The notes under the pieces are model-generated. The model searched no databases. It saw nothing but the letters and a program-made list of their open reading frames with translations, and was not told where the DNA came from. Both the position numbers and the translations under genes were made by a program. From assembly GCA_030429125.1 (NCBI GenBank), contig JAUIDF010000003.1, forward strand, positions 1 through 37,564: 37,564 nt of DNA, in the 5' to 3' direction. Shown here one piece after another: positions 4,953 to 34,803 of the stretch. Each line of letters opens with the position of its first letter. Within the stretch, counting starts at the first letter, position 1. This stretch comes from Gammaproteobacteria bacterium (GTDB taxonomy: Bacteria > Pseudomonadota > Gammaproteobacteria > Arenicellales > CAJQKF01).

Positions 4953-5839
4953 CGCGGCCGCTGATGGAAAGGACAAGCCCGCCAACGGCCGTCTTCGGCC
5001 CCTACGACCAGGTCGCCCTCGACGCGCAGTACGATCAGCGCACACTCGTGCCGGACATCGAACCCTACGTGATGCGATGGCGCGAAGAGAGCGAGCGGCT
5101 GCGCCGGGATCTCGACTGCCGATGCGACGTGCCCTATGGTGACGACCCCGTGGAGCGGCTCGATTTCTTTCCGGCCGGCCGCGACGGCGCGCCGATCGTG
5201 GCCTTCATTCACGGCGGCGCCTGGACCCGCCAGTCGCGAAGTGAGTCGGCCTACCCGGCGGCGGCCGTGGTGGCGTCGGGCGCGTGTTTCGCCGTCATCG
5301 GCTCGGCCCGCGTGCCGGGCGTTACACTGGAAACGCAAGTCGACCAGAACCTGCGGGCCATCGCCTGGCTGGCCCGCAACGCGGCTTCCCTGGGCGGCGA
5401 TCCGCAACGCATCTACCTGCTCGGCCATTCCTCGGGCGCTCACATCACCGGCATGGCAGTCACCGAGGACTGGACGCGGTTCGGCCTGCCGCCCGACCTG
5501 GTCAAGGGCGCCATGGCGGTGAGCGGACTGTACGACCTCGAGCCGGTGCGCCTGAGCGCGCGCAACGACTACCTGGGTCTCGACGCGCAACGCGCTCGTG
5601 CGATGAGCCCGATTCGCCGGATCAAAGAGGCAGCTTGTCCGCTCGTCGTGGCCTGGGGCGAGGGCGAACTCGACGAGTTCAAACGCCAGTCGCGTGATTT
5701 TTCCGACGCGTGGCATCGCTCGGGAAATGTATGCGAGACACTGACCCTCGCGGACTGCAACCACTTCGACATGACGTTTGAGCTGATGGCGCCCCAAGGG
5801 CGGCTGATGTCGCGCCTGTGCGGGATCGTGCTAAGGTGA
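4949..5839 (+). CDS. alpha/beta hydrolase, arylformamidase/esterase-like
   Basis: A 296-residue cytoplasmic serine hydrolase. The oxyanion-hole motif HGGAW is at residues 88-92, the nucleophile elbow GHSSGAH at 159-165 puts the catalytic serine at 161, and the late DCNHFDM supplies the catalytic histidine. This arrangement matches the kynurenine-formamidase-like and hormone-sensitive-lipase-like esterases. The N-terminal phrase YDQVALDAQYDQRTLVPD also resembles arylformamidase-like enzymes. The GTG start at 4949 overlaps the TGA of the small ORF (GTGA); an in-frame ATG at 4964 has no better ribosome site. No tryptophan-pathway genes lie nearby, so the substrate is open. It is followed 37 bp later by the TAXI-type TRAP genes. 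Confidence 0.8.
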   Translation: MTRPLMERTSPPTAVFGPYDQVALDAQYDQRTLVPDIEPYVMRWREESERLRRDLDCRCDVPYGDDPVERLDFFPAGRDGAPIVAFIHGGAWTRQSRSESAYPAAAVVASGACFAVIGSARVPGVTLETQVDQNLRAIAWLARNAASLGGDPQRIYLLGHSSGAHITGMAVTEDWTRFGLPPDLVKGAMAVSGLYDLEPVRLSARNDYLGLDAQRARAMSPIRRIKEAACPLVVAWGEGELDEFKRQSRDFSDAWHRSGNVCETLTLADCNHFDMTFELMAPQGRLMSRLCGIVLR

Positions 5840-5876
5840 ACGACGACACGATCATGCTCATCCAGAGGTAGCCTAC

Positions 5877-6840
5877 GTGAAACGACTTGTCCTCGCCGCC
5901 GCCCTTGTCGCGGCGGCATCCGCCGCCCCTGCCAACGCGCAGCAACCGGTCGCCATCGGTTCCCTGCCGCAGGGTTCGCTCGGTTATTCCATTGCCTCGG
6001 CCATGGCTAAAGTGGCGACCGAGGCCGGCGGAATCGATACGCGCGCGGTTGGTCTCGGCGGATCGAGCGTTTATATCCCGCAGATCAACGCCGGCGAGAT
6101 GGAGTTCGGCACTTCCAACACGTTCGAATCGATCTTCGCCACGCAGGGCACCGGCAATTTCGAGGGACGTCCCAATCCCAACCTGCGCGTCGCTGCCGCA
6201 CTGGTACCGTTCACCGTTGGCTTGATGGTCCAGAACGATTCGGACATCCGCGAGATCACCGATCTCGAGGGCAGGCCGTTTCCGACCGGCTATGCGCGCA
6301 TGCGGCTGGTCGGCATTATGCAGGAGGCGATCTTCGGCGCGCCTCGGCATGGATGAATCGAATCTCGACCCGGTGCCGGTGCCCAACTTCGTCAAGGGCG
6401 CGGAACTGCTTGCCGAAGGCGCCGTGGCCGGCGTGCTCCTGGCTCCCGGCTCCGGTGTGGTATCGAAGACCAATGCGCAGACGCCGATCCGCTTCCTGTC
6501 CATTCCCGACACGCCGGAAGTGGCGCAGTCCATCGCCGCGGCCTTGCCGAGCACCTACCTGACGGTGGTGGAGCCGAATCCGCGCCTCGCCGGCATCGTT
6601 GAGCCGACCACGCTGCTCGGCTACCAGTACACGCTCGTTACCCATGCGGGCGTTTCCGACGACACGGTCTACCAGGTGGTGAAGGCTCTGCACGAGAACC
6701 AGGCGGCACTGGCCGCGGCACACGGCGTCTTCAACCGGTTCGACCCTGCGCAAATGGCCGTCGAACTGCCCGGGGCCGAGTATCACCCGGGGGCAATCCG
6801 GTACTACGAGGAGCAAGGTCTTTGGCCGCCGAAGTCGTGA
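5877..6840 (+). pseudogene. TAXI-family TRAP binding protein, broken by a one-base frameshift
   Basis: This should encode a ~320-residue periplasmic solute-binding protein of the TAXI branch of TRAP transporters. The first part (GTG start at 5877 with AGAGG at 5864-5868) has a clear signal peptide and the family opening IGSLPQGSLGYSIASAMAKV, then stops at 6354-6356. The rest of the protein continues from about 6343 one base out of phase (LGMDESNLDPVPVPNF) to the stop at 6840. Removing one base in the GC run at 6336-6343 joins the two parts as IFGALGMDESN, a seamless family sequence. It is either a real null allele or a one-base sequencing or assembly error. The downstream fused permease is intact, which favours a recent event or an error. 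Confidence 0.85.
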
Positions 6841-12006: not shown

Positions 12007-12185
12007 TCGGCCCGCCGGCACGATGCCGGCCGAGCGAAATCTCCGGCTGTTCTTCGCATCCCGCAAGGCGCGTTGAGGCATCATGGTGGTTCCCCGGCGA
12101 CGCCATGCAACGCTGTCGGGGCACCCTTGATCATGCAAGGGGCGCCCGCCAGCCTGCCGCGGATGGATCGTGTGAACGGGCCCTA
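12007..12185 (+). mobile_element. MITE-like repeat, copy 1
   Basis: First of three related ~180-bp repeats. The core (about 12060-12125) matches copies at 19021 and 21661: CAAGGCGCGTTGAGGC, ATGGTGGTT and ATGCAACGCTGTC. The right end, read on the reverse strand, is CTAGGGCCCGTTCACACGA, close to the perfect inverted end of copy 2. The left end is decayed and recognisable only by alignment (GGCCCGCC, CACGATGCC, GAGCG). An internal CCCTTG...CAAGGG hairpin is present. The terminal CTAG supplies the stop codon (TAG, minus strand) of the secreted-protein gene at 12183. No transposase is encoded, so the element is non-autonomous. Confidence 0.72.
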
Positions 12186-13640
12186 GTCGACGTCGTCGCG
12201 GGACACGCGGGTGACGGATGGCGCGTCGTGAAGGCGACGGCCGCCGAGTGCGAGGGCGGCACGCTTCATTTGCCTCGCGGCACTGCCGAATCCGCCGCGG
12301 CCGCTGCCCGGGGTGATGGTGCCGAAATCCGGGTCGTCGTCCACCGGCTGGCCGGCAAGGCCCAGGTCCGTGGGCACGGCGCCGGCCGGGGGCGCGCCGC
12401 GACCGCCGTCGGTGGAGTCGTCGACCGGCTGTCCCGCCAGCACGAGGTCGGTCATCCAGTCGGCGGGATCGGTTTGCACGGCCATCCGGGGGGCGTCGTC
12501 GTCGTCCACCGGCTGGCCGGCAATATCGACGGGCTTGGGCATTTCCTCGGCGAGCCGGCGCTGCTCTTCCTCGGTCAGGCTCGGCCTCGGGGCGCTGCCG
12601 GCGTCATCCGGGCGCGGCTTGTCGTCCTTGCCGAAGGTCTGCACCGGTTTCTTGCCGCGCTCGTAGCGCGTCAGCACGTAGTTGCCCTCGTCGTCGGAGA
12701 TCTTGACCCATACCACGTCGCCATCGGTCACGATGGTACCGGTTCGGGTGCCGGCCGGCGACGGCAGGTTGTCTCCGTCCATGCCGCCGGTCGACGCTTC
12801 GCCGTAGGTCATCTCGTAGTAGACCTTGGTGTCGTCGTTGGTGGTCTCGCCTTCGCTGTCGTCGCTCATGGCCATGCCGCGGCCCTTCCTGCCGGCTTCG
12901 CGCGCATCGTCAGGACCCGGCCCGCTGCCGGCGCCGTCGCCGTCGTCGCCGCCGAGCAGGGAGCGGCCGCTGCGCGGGTCGCGCGCGGCGACGTTTCGCG
13001 ATCCGGCGACGCCCTCGCCGGTGAGGGGGTTCGTGGCCGCCCGGGGCCGTGCCAGCGTGAGCGGATTGCCGGTCATGGGGTCGGTGGCTCCGACCCGGGG
13101 ACCGACGTCGGGCCCGAGGCCCGCCTGCTCGAGTTCATGCTTCGCCCTGATGCCGGCGAGCCGCTTCTCCAGGTGAGCAAGTCGTGGCAGCACCACTACG
13201 CCGCGGGGGACGGTTGCCGTCGGGGCGGCCGCCGCCTTGCGAGGCGTAACCACCTCGGCGTTCGGGTTCGCGAAGGCCCGGGGGGACGCGGCCCTGGCCG
13301 TCTTCGCCGGCCCGGCCGAACTTGCCGTCGCACCAGGCTTGTCGCGAGACGTCGTCGCCACCGGATGCAAGGTCTTTTTCGCCGGCGCCGGGTTCGCGGC
13401 GCGCATCGCGCGCTTCTTCTTCCCTACCGTCGCGGTGCTGCGGTCGACCGCAGTCGACCGGGGTTTCTTCGCCTCGATCCGGGGCGTTGCCGTCGGTATC
13501 GTCGCGATTCCGGGCAGGGATTTTTGTGCGACTGAAATGGTCGGCAACGTCTTTACCGTCGCCGCCGCGAAAGCGGCGCCGGTGAGCAGAAACGTGCTGG
13601 CTGCCGCGACGGCAGCGCAACGGCGTCGATTCCGGTGCAT
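12183..13640 (-). CDS. unrecognised exported protein with AGQPVDD repeats
   Basis: A 485-residue protein that I do not recognise. It has a basic N terminus and hydrophobic signal (residues 1-27, cleavage near AAFAA). Next comes a low-complexity Lys/Ala/Pro/Thr region (30-145), then two similar phrases DPMTGNPLT and ATNPLTGEG (187-210). A likely folded segment follows at about 270-330 (KVYYEMTYGE, GTIVTDGDVVWVKISDDEG, YVLTRYERG). The acidic C-terminal region has three AGQPVDD units near residues 374, 402 and 429, spaced 27-28 residues. The ATG at 13640 is preceded by GGGGGA. The acidic Asp-rich units could bind cations. Its TAG stop lies in the end of repeat copy 1. A long opposite-strand frame is a shadow. 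Confidence 0.68.
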   Translation of the reverse strand: MHRNRRRCAAVAAASTFLLTGAAFAAATVKTLPTISVAQKSLPGIATIPTATPRIEAKKPRSTAVDRSTATVGKKKRAMRAANPAPAKKTLHPVATTSRDKPGATASSAGPAKTARAASPRAFANPNAEVVTPRKAAAAPTATVPRGVVVLPRLAHLEKRLAGIRAKHELEQAGLGPDVGPRVGATDPMTGNPLTLARPRAATNPLTGEGVAGSRNVAARDPRSGRSLLGGDDGDGAGSGPGPDDAREAGRKGRGMAMSDDSEGETTNDDTKVYYEMTYGEASTGGMDGDNLPSPAGTRTGTIVTDGDVVWVKISDDEGNYVLTRYERGKKPVQTFGKDDKPRPDDAGSAPRPSLTEEEQRRLAEEMPKPVDIAGQPVDDDDAPRMAVQTDPADWMTDLVLAGQPVDDSTDGGRGAPPAGAVPTDLGLAGQPVDDDPDFGTITPGSGRGGFGSAARQMKRAALALGGRRLHDAPSVTRVSRDDVD

Positions 13641-28595: not shown

Positions 28596-30680
28596 ATGAG
28601 GACACGATCATCCCGATCCCGGCGCCCGGCGGCCTTTGGACTGTGCCTGCTGCTCGGCGTCTCGACTGCGGCGCCGCCAACCGCCCATGCGGATTGGCGG
28701 CCTTCGCTGGCGCCCCCGCTGGACGCCTATCGCGCGCCGCTTGATCCGCTGAGAATCGACCTGCCCGCCGACATGCCGCAGGGGGATCTCGACTACCTTG
28801 CCCTGGACCTGGACCGGGTCGATGTCACGGCGCGCGTCTATGTCGACGGTGCGCAGCTCGTTTACGAACCGCCCGCGGCATTGCCGATCGGCGAGCATCG
28901 ACTGCGCCTCGTGCAGTATCGGCCGGACGGCGGCGTCGACGTGCGAGGCGATTGGCGGTTCGACGTCGACGAATCCGCCGCCGATGTCACGCGGATTCGC
29001 CTGGACGGCAGCGCGTCGCTCACGGCGCGCTACCGGGTCGCGGATGACGGTTCACGGGACTACGGCGCGGTCGATCACGGCAGCGGCGCGCTCGACGCCG
29101 CGGGTACGGCCGCGAACGCGCACGGGTCGGTCGAGGGCAGCGCCTCGCTGCTTTACGACAGTGCCGGCGTGCCGGTGGACGCGGACGACTTCGACGAGGA
29201 CGGCACGGCGCGCCCGGGCACGCGCGAAGTCGAACTTGGCGAGTATGTGCTCTCGGCGCGCTCGCGCGCCTTGTCTTCGACACTCGGACACCACCGCCTG
29301 CCACGGGAAAGTCTCGTCATGCGGGACTTTCATCGCCGGGGCGCATCGGTCACCCTGGCGGGTCGGGAGCGGTTCAGCGCCAGCGGCTTTGCCTTGCGCG
29401 CCGAGCCGGTGGTCGGATTCGATCGCATTACCGGCATCGACGATGACGACGACCGTGTCGTCGGCGCCATTGCCTCCGGTACGCTCGCTTCCACCGGCAG
29501 CGGCGATCTCGACCTGACCGCCATGGTCCTGTCCGGGGAGGGAAGCGATCGGACAGGTGCCGGTATTGCCGCGGCCGCTGCGCCGGTGGACGGCGATGCC
29601 GCCAGCGTTGCCCTGGCCGCGGGGTTTCACGACGAGCGCCTCGTGCTACGGGGCGAGGTCGCGCGCAGCCGTTTCGATTTCGACAGCGGCGATGCCGACG
29701 ATCGCAAGATCGAGGACGACGCCTACCAGTTTTCGATTACCCTCGATCCGTGGCGCTCGCGCCTGATTGGCGATCGTCCGGCCTATTGGCAGACGCAACT
29801 CGAGTACGAGCAGATCGGCACTTTCTTTCGCAGCGTCGCCAACCCCGGGGCGATCAGCGATGTTCGCGCGTTGCGGCTGTCCTCGGCGTTCAGCGCGCTC
29901 GGCTGGAGCGTCGACGCCCGATTGAGCCGCGAGCAGGACAACGTCGACGACGACCCGTCGATCGCCGCGTATCAATCCGACATCGCCAGCCTGTTCGCGA
30001 GCTTCACACCGCCCCGCGAGCTGGCGGGCGACACGGGCGGGCGATGGTTCGGACAGCCGGTCTTTCTCTTCGGCGTCGACTACACCCGCCAGCGTGACGT
30101 CTCGACACCGGATATCGGCGGCGGTCTCGATTTTGCGCTCGACGGTGTCACCCGCCAGTTCACGTTCGGTGCGAACTTCGTTCACGACCGGTGGGACTGG
30201 GGCTTCAACCATACCTTCGGCGAGTCCGAGGACCGCCTCGATCGCACGCCCGACAGCGAGAACTCGCTGACCGACCTGTCGCTGAACTACCGCTTCGGCG
30301 ACCGGCTGTATCTTGGCACCCAGTTTCAGCGCAGCAACCTGCGCGAGATCGGCACCGGCGTCGACATCGACGGATACCTGGCCGGGATCAATGCCTACTT
30401 CGTCATCGTGCCGGGCAGGCTGTCCGGTTCGACCTACCTGAGCTGGCATCGCCAGCGTGCCACGGACGGATCGTCGTCGACGCGCACGCGCACCCTCGAC
30501 CTCGATCTTCAGTGGCAGGCACGGGCACCGAGGACCAACCGGCCGGGACTGAAGGTCTTCCTCAAGGGACAGTACCAGCAGGTCGAGGACAATCGATTCG
30601 ACGACATTGAAGACGATCCCTACCAGGTCTTCGTGGGTCTGACCATGGATGCCCCGTTCTCCCTGCAACGGCCGCGCTGA
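28596..30680 (+). CDS. exported protein, probable outer-membrane beta-barrel
   Basis: A 694-residue protein that I do not recognise. A basic N terminus and hydrophobic signal end at about residue 33 (AHADW). Residues ~45-135 look like an Ig-like or beta-sandwich domain (VTARVYVDGAQLVYEP, LPIGEHRLRLVQY). From about residue 220 the sequence alternates polar and hydrophobic residues in strands joined by acidic turns, e.g. YWQTQLEYEQIGTFF, QFTFGANFVHDRWDWGFNH, LYLGTQFQRSNL and a final YQVFVGLTMDAPF, as in outer-membrane barrels. The ATG at 28596 directly follows ACGGGAG, unusually close. Its TGA overlaps the next start (TGATG), so expression is coupled to the following two genes. A surface or outer-membrane role is inferred. 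Confidence 0.65.
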   Translation: MRTRSSRSRRPAAFGLCLLLGVSTAAPPTAHADWRPSLAPPLDAYRAPLDPLRIDLPADMPQGDLDYLALDLDRVDVTARVYVDGAQLVYEPPAALPIGEHRLRLVQYRPDGGVDVRGDWRFDVDESAADVTRIRLDGSASLTARYRVADDGSRDYGAVDHGSGALDAAGTAANAHGSVEGSASLLYDSAGVPVDADDFDEDGTARPGTREVELGEYVLSARSRALSSTLGHHRLPRESLVMRDFHRRGASVTLAGRERFSASGFALRAEPVVGFDRITGIDDDDDRVVGAIASGTLASTGSGDLDLTAMVLSGEGSDRTGAGIAAAAAPVDGDAASVALAAGFHDERLVLRGEVARSRFDFDSGDADDRKIEDDAYQFSITLDPWRSRLIGDRPAYWQTQLEYEQIGTFFRSVANPGAISDVRALRLSSAFSALGWSVDARLSREQDNVDDDPSIAAYQSDIASLFASFTPPRELAGDTGGRWFGQPVFLFGVDYTRQRDVSTPDIGGGLDFALDGVTRQFTFGANFVHDRWDWGFNHTFGESEDRLDRTPDSENSLTDLSLNYRFGDRLYLGTQFQRSNLREIGTGVDIDGYLAGINAYFVIVPGRLSGSTYLSWHRQRATDGSSSTRTRTLDLDLQWQARAPRTNRPGLKVFLKGQYQQVEDNRFDDIEDDPYQVFVGLTMDAPFSLQRPR

Positions 30681-32536
30681 TGGACTGCATGATGACACCA
30701 CGCACATTGATCGCGATGCTGGCGGCTGTCGTTTCGCTTTTCGTTGCGGGCGAGGCGTTCGCGGTGTTCAACATCAACGCGCCGCCGCCGCGGACCGTGA
30801 CGCCCGACAATCGTGTCGTGACCGTCAACTGGACCATGACCACGGACGACAACCTGCAGCCGATCCTCTCGCTGGACCCCGGGCAGATCGAGTCTCCCGG
30901 TGGCCAGATCCTGGCATTTACGGGCACGTTTTCCGTCGGGCCGGGCGCTTTCGCCTATGCGTTCAGCGACAACTTCCTGGTACCGGCATCGGTCATCGAT
31001 GCCGCCATCGACAACGGTTTCGCGTTTCTCAACTATGTTCGATTCTTCGGGCAGGGGGCGGAGATCCCCCTCGAGCGCACCGTGCGAATCGATATCGGCG
31101 CACTCGTCACCGGCGGCTCGGTGCGTCCGTCCCCCGTGGCCGTCGCGCCCGGCGCCGACCAGGTGTTCGATCTCCAGTGGCGGCTCGACGTCGCCGGTTC
31201 GTCGGCCACGGTGACGTCCAACGAGGGCCGATTCCGTCGATCCCCCCGCGGTGCCGCGATCGGGGCCGTCGTGAACCAGCGCCTGCGCGCCAATGCCGGC
31301 GGCGGCGCGCGCCTGCGAGAGCGACTGGTGGTGCCGGCTGCCGTGGTCGCGGCAGCCGCCCGACAAGGGCTTCGCCGCATGGTCTACGCGCGCGACTTCA
31401 TCGCCGGCGGCAGCGTGTCGCGAATCGCGCTCGACATCGACATTCTCGACGCGCTGACGCAGGTGACGGGCACGGCCGGCGGCGCACGCCTGGCCAGCGG
31501 TCGCGCCGGCAGCGTTCCGCTTCGCTGGACCGCGCGGTTCACGCGTCGCGGTGGCTCGCCGCAGCTCACGCTGCGCTCCGCCGGTGGCCGTTTCCTGGCA
31601 GCGGACGGCAGCGTGCTGGGGGTCTTCTCCGGCGACCTTGCGCGGCCGGGCGCCGGCAACGGCTCGGTGACCGTTACCGAGAATCTGCTCGTGCCGGCGG
31701 CCGTCACGGTACGCGCACGCCAGGGCGGACATCCGGCGGTCATCGTCGAGCGCACTTTCAGCGACGGACATTCCGAACGAACGGCGCGGGTGCGCCTGCC
31801 CCTGGTCGGCGCGGTTGGTGCCGGTTTCAACGTGGGTCGCCTGGACCTGCACTTCCCCGATTTCTCGCGCATCAGGGTCGTGAACGGCGGCGACGACGTC
31901 ACGGTGGTCGCCGACCTGTCGACCACTGGCTCGGGTCTTCTCGATGCGGCCTGGGAAGTGGCGTCGCCGTCGCCGGGTGGGCCGTTGATCTTTCGCACTG
32001 TCTCGCTGGTTCGGCAACACCTGGGCGGCGCCGGCCGAAAACGATTGACCAGCCCACCCCTGCCGGCGCTGCAGCCGGGTCTTCACGTGGTGAGGCTCAA
32101 CGTCAACAGCCCGGCGTTCGCCTTTGAACCGCCGGTGGTTCGTTACTACGTCGGGACCGCGGATGAAGACGCGATCTTCGGCGACGAGATGCTGCGACCG
32201 ATCCGGCTGACCGGTCCCGAGGCGGGAACCCTGCTGGCGGACGACACCCGCTTCCAATGGCAACGGCTCGACGGTGTCGATGCCTACGTGCTCGAGCTCT
32301 ATCCGCTCGGCCGCGAGCCGCTGCCGCCGCCCGGCAGCGCCGTTACGGATGACGCCTACCGGCGGATCGCGGCGGGACTGGTAGTGCCCGGCGAGGATTC
32401 GGCGACCGCGCTGTCGCGACTCGCGTCCGGCTACCTCGTCGCCGGCGAAGCGTATCAATGGCGCGTGATCGCGATCGGAAACGACGGCCGGTACGTCGGC
32501 GAAAGCGACACCGGCGTGATACGCGTACCTCAATAG
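30680..32536 (+). CDS. exported protein with a triplicated ~118-residue beta domain
   Basis: A 618-residue protein of unknown family with a signal peptide (residues 1-28, ending EAFA). Three tandem units of 117-120 residues share the core [NR]-[FL]-[LV]-VPA, at residues 98-103, 215-220 and 335-340. Each unit has an earlier W segment (VNWTM, LQWRLD, LRWTARF), a G-x-[FI] strand, and after the core a segment ending in an R-rich strand. Two further beta-rich segments follow (about 385-495 and 510-618); the last, RFQWQRLDGVDAYVLELYPL, has an Ig/Fn3-like look. The ATG at 30680 overlaps the previous stop. Probably a periplasmic or surface partner of the barrel-like protein upstream. Confidence 0.68.
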   Translation: MDCMMTPRTLIAMLAAVVSLFVAGEAFAVFNINAPPPRTVTPDNRVVTVNWTMTTDDNLQPILSLDPGQIESPGGQILAFTGTFSVGPGAFAYAFSDNFLVPASVIDAAIDNGFAFLNYVRFFGQGAEIPLERTVRIDIGALVTGGSVRPSPVAVAPGADQVFDLQWRLDVAGSSATVTSNEGRFRRSPRGAAIGAVVNQRLRANAGGGARLRERLVVPAAVVAAAARQGLRRMVYARDFIAGGSVSRIALDIDILDALTQVTGTAGGARLASGRAGSVPLRWTARFTRRGGSPQLTLRSAGGRFLAADGSVLGVFSGDLARPGAGNGSVTVTENLLVPAAVTVRARQGGHPAVIVERTFSDGHSERTARVRLPLVGAVGAGFNVGRLDLHFPDFSRIRVVNGGDDVTVVADLSTTGSGLLDAAWEVASPSPGGPLIFRTVSLVRQHLGGAGRKRLTSPPLPALQPGLHVVRLNVNSPAFAFEPPVVRYYVGTADEDAIFGDEMLRPIRLTGPEAGTLLADDTRFQWQRLDGVDAYVLELYPLGREPLPPPGSAVTDDAYRRIAAGLVVPGEDSATALSRLASGYLVAGEAYQWRVIAIGNDGRYVGESDTGVIRVPQ

Positions 32537-32553
32537 CGAACGGTACTGGCACC

Positions 32554-34803
32554 ATGAAAAAGATCCGAAAGCTGCTGATCGGCCTGGTCGGCGTGGTCGG
32601 CGTCCACGGCGTTGCCGGCGCCGACACGCTCACCTACCAGGCCTACACGGAGTACCCGGTAAAGCAGACCGGCGCGATCAATGCGGCCGGCGTGAACTGG
32701 TCCTGCGCCGGATTCAAGTGCGAGGCGCAAGGGTTCGGCGCACTGGGCGTGAGCCAGTGCAAGGCCCTCGCCGCCCGCATCGGTTACATCGGCTCATTTG
32801 CCTGGGGCGGGTCGCAACTGGGCGCGGCCCAACTCGACGCCTGCAATGCCGGTATCGTCATGGGGTCGGAGATCGAGGTGCCGGCGCCGGAAATCTCACC
32901 CGCGTCGCCGTCGGTCGGCTCGTCGTCGACCGCGTCGCCAGCCGAAACGCGACACCGGTATCGCGCGCGCACGCGCGCGGCGCCGGGCGCGACGAAAGCC
33001 GTGTCGGCCGGCGGACTTCGATTCCGCTGCAGTGCCGGCGGCGATTGTTCCGCCGACGGGGCAGCGTCGGCGTTTTCCGTGTCGACGTGCCGCTCGCTTG
33101 CCGCCAGCGTCGGACACCTCGCATCGTTCAATCGTGACGGCCGCGCGATGGATGCCGCGGAACTCGCCCGGTGCAACCAGGGTCTGCGCTTCACCTTCGT
33201 CGCCGAGCTCTCGCGGCCGGTGCGGGACGGACGCATCGACGTCGCCGGCGGCAGCTGGCAATGCCGCGGGCGACGGTGCGAAATCTCCACCGGGTGGGAA
33301 GCGCCGACCGTGGCGTCCTGCAGTCTGCTCGCCGACCGCGCCGACGCGCGGGTCACACGATTCTCGGGAGACGTCGGCGGTGAGCTCAACGCGGGCGAAC
33401 TCGCCCGCTGCAACCGGTCTGCCGGCGGCGTGGCGGTTATCGCCCGCATCGACAGTGCCGGACAACTGCCGCGCCAGGCGGTCATCGGCGGTGTGCCGTG
33501 GGAGTGTCGCCGCACCGCGGGCCGCTGGGAGTGTAGCGGACGAATGAGCCGCGATACCTTCCTCGCCGGATTCAACATCGGCACCTGCCGGCAACTGGCC
33601 GCACGCCTCGGTCCGGTGCAGGCCTTCGGCGAGGACGGTGGCGATCGGCAACTCGCAGCCGCGCAACTGGCGCAATGCAACCAGTCGGCGCTGGAAGGTC
33701 GACTGCCAGGTGGCGTCGACCCGGAGTTTCGCGTCGTCGACGAGCTCGAGGGACGGCGCGGCATCGGCGGCGCGCTGGTGCGGCGCGACGACGGCAGCGG
33801 GTACGGCGTCGCGTCGCAGCCATTGACCGCCGGTGACGACGAACTCGGCGTGCTGCGCCAGGCCATGTTGGGCAATACCTGCCTGATCGACCCCGACTGT
33901 GGAACCGGTCGATGCCGGGAAGGTTTCTGTGCTCCCGAGGACGGCGAGGGCGCCTCTCCGTGGGAGTTCGGCGACGCCGGACGCACCGACTATTGTCATC
34001 ATGACAATCATTGTCGAAGCAACGTGTGTGTCTGCGACGACCCGGATCACAAGGACGGCGCTTTCTGCCGCGCGAACGGCAAGATCAAGCCGGGCAAGTG
34101 CTCGGCGCACACCAGGATCCCACTGGGTCAGCCGTGCAATCGAAAATTCATGTGTGCCAGGGCAACCGCCAATGCCGCGCAATGTGTCCAGGGCAAGTGC
34201 GCGCCGGAGGACGATACCGGCACCACGGGGATGTACTGCCACCACAACAATCACTGCATTTCCGGCAAGTGCATCGGCAACCAGTGCCAGGCGCTCGTCG
34301 ACGTCGGCGGGTCGTGCAAGCGCGACCACCACTGTCGTGGCGGCAACCGGGCTTTCTGGGGTGGAGACTGGACCGCACGGTGCGAAAGGGGAAAATGCGT
34401 GCCGCGCGATTTCGTCGGCGACAACGGCGATTTCTGCCAGCACGACAATCACTGTGCGTCGATGGTCTGTGCCCAGAACCGCTGTTTCGGCGGCGCGCTG
34501 CCGCTTGGCGCCAAGTGCAAGAAAGAGGAGCAATGCGCCGGCGGCAACCGCCAACTGCTCGGCGACCGGTGGACCACCCACTGTCCGCAGGGTCGCTGCG
34601 CGCCGAAGGACCGCACGGGCGATCCCGGCACCTACTGCCACCACGACAACCACTGCACCCAGGGTCTTCGCTGCAAGTGTCCGGGCCGCGGCCGCTATGG
34701 CGAGCGCTTCCTCAACGGCGTATGCATCCGCACCGACGATCAGAGCGACGAGGACATGCGCAACAAGGTCGCCAGCCGCACGGAATTCGTCTGCAAGATC
34801 TGA
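32554..34803 (+). CDS. cysteine-rich exported protein with two repeat families
   Basis: A 749-residue protein with a signal peptide (residues 1-23). The N-terminal half has four units (about 41-100, 150-210, 228-289, 309-379), each W/F-x-C...C...C-x2-LA...F...LA-x-CN: four cysteines per unit, ending in LARCNQ-type motifs. The C-terminal half (about 443-725) has dense cysteines and four copies of an [YF]-C-[HQ]-H-[DN]-N-H-C module at residues 480, 561, 627 and 694. Two longer segments with GGNR and W-T-x2-C repeat between modules. The His/Cys modules could bind metal or form disulfide-knotted EB/Dickkopf-like folds. The ATG at 32554 is 17 bp after the preceding stop. It is the third gene of the operon; function unknown. 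Confidence 0.7.
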   Translation: MKKIRKLLIGLVGVVGVHGVAGADTLTYQAYTEYPVKQTGAINAAGVNWSCAGFKCEAQGFGALGVSQCKALAARIGYIGSFAWGGSQLGAAQLDACNAGIVMGSEIEVPAPEISPASPSVGSSSTASPAETRHRYRARTRAAPGATKAVSAGGLRFRCSAGGDCSADGAASAFSVSTCRSLAASVGHLASFNRDGRAMDAAELARCNQGLRFTFVAELSRPVRDGRIDVAGGSWQCRGRRCEISTGWEAPTVASCSLLADRADARVTRFSGDVGGELNAGELARCNRSAGGVAVIARIDSAGQLPRQAVIGGVPWECRRTAGRWECSGRMSRDTFLAGFNIGTCRQLAARLGPVQAFGEDGGDRQLAAAQLAQCNQSALEGRLPGGVDPEFRVVDELEGRRGIGGALVRRDDGSGYGVASQPLTAGDDELGVLRQAMLGNTCLIDPDCGTGRCREGFCAPEDGEGASPWEFGDAGRTDYCHHDNHCRSNVCVCDDPDHKDGAFCRANGKIKPGKCSAHTRIPLGQPCNRKFMCARATANAAQCVQGKCAPEDDTGTTGMYCHHNNHCISGKCIGNQCQALVDVGGSCKRDHHCRGGNRAFWGGDWTARCERGKCVPRDFVGDNGDFCQHDNHCASMVCAQNRCFGGALPLGAKCKKEEQCAGGNRQLLGDRWTTHCPQGRCAPKDRTGDPGTYCHHDNHCTQGLRCKCPGRGRYGERFLNGVCIRTDDQSDEDMRNKVASRTEFVCKI

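Follow-up and report, generated by a model that had tools for sequence, protein, structure and literature searches.

In the window, by which we mean the whole analysed stretch of 37,564 nucleotides (contig C52 of a 76% complete draft genome of 3.69 Mb from an uncultured gammaproteobacterium), three consecutive genes, here called A, B and C, are arranged as follows.

28596..30680, plus strand: gene A, 694 aa (ORF listing)
30678..30682, plus strand: TGATG, in which the start codon of B overlaps the stop codon of A (sequence)
30680..32536, plus strand: gene B, 618 aa, beginning within the stop codon of A (ORF listing)
32537..32553, plus strand: gap of 17 nt between B and C (sequence)
32554..34803, plus strand: gene C, 749 aa, with ATG 32554 as the start (mechanical ORF 32458-34803)

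This layout, with its overlap and its 17-bp gap, had been given in a preliminary description of the same DNA and was confirmed in the sequence. The start codon chosen for gene C, 17 nt past the stop codon of B and immediately 5' of MKKIRKLLIGLVGVVGV..., has its counterpart at the matching position in a sister species. The signal peptides proposed earlier were also recovered, as judged by hydropathy only: in the N-termini of A, B and C a hydrophobic stretch comes after a basic segment or a polar start, a lipobox is absent, and the three proteins have no other strong transmembrane helix; each thus apparently carries a Sec signal peptide. All three are real genes under purifying selection, as follows from their coding-like codon-position composition together with dN/dS ratios of about 0.2-0.3 in comparison with the sister species (about 0.25/1.09 for the first 500 codons of A, 0.30/1.03 for B and 0.23/1.07 for C).

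The sister species has the identical order A-B-C, spread over two contigs with an assembly gap inside A, and the proteins are about 61-69% identical between the two species. In the window, a gene for a DeoR-type regulator is located 5' of A, and a gene for an FkbM-type methyltransferase lies 3' of C on the opposite strand. Since the regions upstream of A and downstream of C show no likeness between the window and the sister species, the operon was taken to consist of A-B-C. A scan of this operon for sigma-70 promoters and terminators gave results near chance level. Elsewhere in the window (12183-13640, minus strand) there is a gene for an exported-looking protein of 485 residues, rich in Ala, Pro and Gly and with acidic stretches, which has no Pfam match. 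In style it resembles a 540-residue protein encoded upstream of a second A-B copy in the same genome; a BLAST comparison of the two gave no match.

The product of gene A is predicted to be an outer-membrane beta-barrel protein, with many amphipathic strands following the signal peptide. An AlphaFold2 model obtained with six aligned relatives as input (pLDDT 77, pTM 0.64) has an N-terminal beta domain at about residues 52-124 and a barrel of about 26 long strands at residues 133-693, the strand count being that of a single model. Structure comparison with Foldseek and VIA yielded matches to the ushers FimD and PapC, MtrB, AlgE, OprD-type porins and TonB-dependent receptors, with VIA Z values against outer-membrane barrels of up to 17.9. 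These matches cover all kinds of large barrels, and what they indicate is a large outer-membrane barrel rather than a particular function or a role in export. Sequence comparison gave nothing of weight in Pfam (E<=1) or NCBIfam, no usher match for the aligned relatives, no relative in the PDB and no match among plasmid records.

Gene B codes for an exported protein built as a chain of Ig/FN3-like domains. Among these, three units of about 118 aa (residues 33-152, 152-265 and 265-385) are mutually related, with pairwise scores exceeding those of all 1000 shuffles; they are followed by one Ig-like and one FN3-like domain, for which the same shuffle test gave no such relation. The AlphaFold2 model is confident for residues 255-618 only and contains three beta-sandwich domains in that part, which are of Ig/FN3 type by their structure matches. 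Relatives of B have from one to several repeat units, as read from their sequences. Searches with B gave nothing of weight in Pfam or NCBIfam and no PDB relative by sequence.

The distribution of the two genes was examined in a class sample of 369 gammaproteobacterial genomes and a phylum sample of 299 genomes; the relatives from the named collection are gammaproteobacterial MAGs. The profile of A matched 22 of the 369 class genomes and, in the phylum sample, one genome besides the present one. The profile of B matched 17/369, and all 13 genomes with a strong B match also possess A, so that in no sampled genome does a strong B occur without A. Wherever the contig extends beyond a close homologue of A, which is the case in 18 loci, B follows A directly, and genome G245 provides one more case. 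A and B therefore form a conserved, inseparable two-gene unit of patchy occurrence across the class, belonging to a family that is undescribed, and the invariable order in close relatives together with the 13/13 co-occurrence strongly supports a joint function. Few outer-membrane barrels are very large, and those that are well known either move large cargo, such as pilins and LPS, or hold large partners, such as cytochromes. The putative barrel family of A is of that size and is found one-to-one with an Ig-chain partner across many gammaproteobacterial families.

More distant relatives of A sit among very large extracellular proteins of FN3/Ig type, the types being read by eye. Three of them (L067, L068, L070) are found in operons with FN3/Ig/PKD-looking exported proteins of more than 1800 residues, without a typical B. 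In L070 the distant A relative is directly followed by a gene for a small protein (L070:5608-6078) in which a B-related domain comes with a lipoprotein-like signal (LTAC).

In its usual form the locus is more extensive, with the order A-B-ECF sigma-anti-sigma-subtilase. An ECF sigma factor gene directly follows B in 10 of the 18 loci, after which there is generally an anti-sigma factor gene and, in most cases, a subtilase gene; in G002 the same three genes lie near A-B. The other A-B copy of the present genome has a subtilase gene after B, and the contig ends soon thereafter. That copy (L010, contig C246) adjoins a transporter gene that runs off the end of the contig, and G002 has the same layout with its ECF and anti-sigma genes located beyond the transporter. 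The cassette directly after B is missing from the window copy, its sister, G006, G169 and both loci of G285. In a tree of A, these cassette-less copies group with the canonical copies of the present genome and of G002, with 86/96 support, which is below the starred level. From the distribution of the cassette and from this tree it follows that the window copy is a second, diverged paralogue of a module that normally carries regulatory genes, with C standing in place of the usual cassette.

The frequent presence of regulatory genes leads to an alternative in which A and B would act as a sensor of the state of the envelope or cell surface that signals to the linked anti-sigma and ECF factors. 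The subtilase could then be an effector or serve to cleave the anti-sigma factor, and the window copy would be an orphan paralogue that is still connected to that ECF factor, with C as one of its targets. Apart from gene order, this proposal draws on properties of the cassette proteins: the anti-sigma factors possess a hydrophobic segment followed by a conserved C-terminal domain (e.g. L027:13666-14235 and L011:1051-1641 from relatives, alignment A6), three of ten match the fervidolysin prodomain model, i.e. a subtilase prodomain, with the subtilase being the next or a nearby gene, and the linked subtilases retain their triad residues. An anti-sigma prodomain mimic that is bound or cut by a subtilase would be an unusual route for the release of an ECF sigma factor. 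However, the window copy has no adjoining ECF, anti-sigma or subtilase gene, no shared promoter motif or dyad above shuffled controls was detected upstream of the A genes, and direct profile comparison of the C-terminal anti-sigma domain with the linked subtilases revealed no similarity. A literature search did not retrieve a locus that combines ECF, anti-sigma, subtilase and barrel genes. We regard signalling as the role of A-B as a serious possibility, albeit a rather unlikely one.

The protein encoded by gene C consists of two distinct parts. The first, about residues 25-386, contains four domains of the CC_3452 family, recognised as four stretches by the 92-position NCBIfam model NF047636 at 146.7 bits (cut-off 40), and a whole-genome scan agrees with this assignment. 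When the four units are aligned with five other members of the family, a central Cys and a CN motif occur in all rows, the latter as a C-terminal L..CN motif, and the position of the first Cys pair varies. The second part, about residues 440-749, is rich in cysteine and contains four motifs of the CHHDNHC type (CxHxNHC type), at residues 481, 562, 628 and 695. Pfam matches of C were limited to weak ones to EB/DUF7107, no PDB relative was found by sequence for either C or its C-terminal half, and C had no match among plasmid records. Since the class sample contained no relative of the Cys-rich half other than a chance-level match of 38 residues, this half appears unique to the genus within what was searched.

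The architecture of the three proteins agrees in outline with what the preliminary description had read from the letters, namely a barrel-like first product, three similar units of about 118 residues in the second and two families of cysteine repeats in the third, and the predicted barrel supports the envelope role suggested there. Its statement that none of the proteins belongs to a nameable family stands for A and B but is to be corrected for the N-terminal half of C.

Of the 52 cysteines encoded by gene C, the first part has 16 and the second 36, and all 52 are kept in the sister species at 69% protein identity. The conservation and the even number suggest 26 disulfides, although the protein may bind metal instead. 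The latter is of relevance for an alternative explanation, according to which a large substrate would enter through A as a porin-like channel, with B and C at the surface as substrate-binding or scavenging proteins that act, for example, on a metal or peptide by means of the His/Cys-rich repeats of C. The repeated CHHDNHC motifs and the fold matches of A to AlgE, OprD-type porins and TonB-dependent receptors are in line with this. The same applies to the one expression table that was found in the literature on CC_3452, according to which Caulobacter CC_3452 expression rises 2.5-fold when iron is limiting and likewise in a fur mutant (PMC3751524 Table 1). On the other hand, the model of A has no long insert and no apparent plug domain, the operon is without a known transport gene, and the cysteine pattern of C is no less compatible with disulfides than with metal sites. 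Uptake seems distinctly unlikely as the function of the operon.

The function of the CC_3452 family is unknown, and the A-B locus provides a first genomic context for its domain. The preliminary description had seen the three genes as encoding one machine and had proposed conserved synteny as a check, with independent occurrence of the genes as evidence to the contrary. For A and B the idea holds well, because the two are inseparable in order and occurrence, but it fails to extend to C as a general component: C adjoins A-B only in this genus and is missing from the other A-B loci examined, including the A-B-subtilase copy of the same genome. There is, however, a statistical connection between the domains of C and gene A. 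Matches to the CC_3452 model were found in five of the 369 class genomes, the fifth being a weak match in a 66-residue frame, and A is present in four of the five (Fisher p 4.6e-5; 6e-4 when the present genome is left out). In G001 and G006, which are outside the 369-genome sample, CC_3452 and A are both present as well. G169, a member of another family, has a CC_3452-domain protein different from C as the divergent neighbour of A, and the contig ends of G285 are compatible with a similar layout. In G006, G073, G169 and G285 the domain is located near the N-terminus of exported-looking proteins of which the C-terminal parts look unrelated to that of the window protein. The CC_3452 proteins of G006 and G073 are encoded on contigs other than those with A-B; in G073 two of them (L087:11841-13874 and 5181-6041) are about 8 kb apart. 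Most A-B loci are found in genomes without any CC_3452 protein, and Caulobacter, used as a control match, has one. Since the genomes are not independent samples and few families are involved, the association of CC_3452 with A may be taken as a good lead rather than as proof.

With these data it can also be asked whether C belongs to the module at all. It could be a passenger, i.e. a lineage-specific, exported Cys-rich protein that shares a transcript with A-B and has no physical or functional tie to them, which would explain its absence from other A-B loci and its position as the last gene of the operon. Against this, the order A-B-C has been kept between two species whose proteins have diverged as far as described above, the CC_3452 domain is statistically tied to A, and another CC_3452 protein adjoins A in a different family. 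We consider an accidental association unlikely.

The explanation that we favour, with a probability of about 40%, is that A-B exports, folds or holds CC_3452-domain proteins at the cell surface, and that C is the client of the window copy. A would serve as a wide outer-membrane channel or assembly platform, with B as a soluble partner dedicated to it that binds either the barrel or the N-terminal domain. The four CC_3452 domains of C could form the docking part, and the disulfide-rich half may be the functional, protease-resistant part that is exposed on the surface. A domain near the N-terminus in combination with differing C-terminal parts is what would be expected of a common docking domain; given that most A-B genomes lack CC_3452, the clients there would be of other kinds. 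For this reading we count the A-B order (18/18 plus G245), the presence of A in 13/13 genomes with a strong B, the predicted large barrel, the Ig/FN3-like nature of B, the CC_3452/A statistics with the joint presence in G001 and G006, the CC_3452 neighbour of A in G169, the G285 contig ends that would allow the same arrangement, and the very large extracellular proteins near distant relatives of A. Counted against it are the restriction of adjoining C genes to one genus, the location of CC_3452 off the A-B contigs in G006 and G073, the occurrence of CC_3452 in Caulobacter and the fact that A matches large barrels of every kind in fold. C itself is probably a surface or secreted protein handled by A-B. 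A more far-reaching version, in which A-B would constitute a novel system for export or display at the outer membrane with some clients marked by CC_3452, controlled by ECF, anti-sigma and subtilase proteins in its common form and here duplicated and specialised for a single disulfide-rich surface protein, is doubtful when taken as a whole. A-B, often with its own sigma/anti-sigma/subtilase cassette, offers a defined target with testable clients.

Comparison with known systems starts from C. Its four NF047636 stretches place it with the CC_3452 family, but here the domain is repeated four times in tandem and joined to a Cys-rich half. That half weakly resembles the EB module (PF01683), with a score of 20.1 bits that is below the Pfam gathering cut-off of 24.3 for the family. 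With MtrB (6r2q chain B), A shares the size class of large barrels (Foldseek E 4.5e-8, VIA Z 15.2 over 406 residues), although A lacks a Pfam sequence match. An MtrCAB electron conduit, in which multihaem cytochromes accompany the barrel, was considered and rejected, as the CxxCH haem motif is absent from A, B and C. The common form of the A-B locus is reminiscent of FecA/FecR/FecI in that barrel genes adjoin ECF sigma and anti-sigma genes. It differs in that A has no resemblance to TonB receptors or plugs by profile and in that a subtilase is the usual fifth gene, and the window copy, having neither ECF nor anti-sigma gene, is not of the FecIRA type. In comparison with the chaperone-usher systems, A and B have no Pfam match and A falls outside the usher sequence family; an usher has a 24-strand barrel, a plug, an NTD and two CTDs, and the single model of A (pTM 0.64) shows an N-terminal beta domain and about 26 strands, with no plug or CTDs apparent; B is a multidomain chain instead of a two-domain PapD-type chaperone; and Pfam identified no PapD-type chaperone or pilin-like gene in the A-B-C operon. 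Nevertheless, FimD and PapC are the top Foldseek matches of A, with VIA Z values of 15-17 over about 345-400 residues. As in the ushers, an N-terminal soluble domain is predicted to precede an outer-membrane barrel of very large size, and the barrel gene is genetically tied to exported Ig-like proteins.
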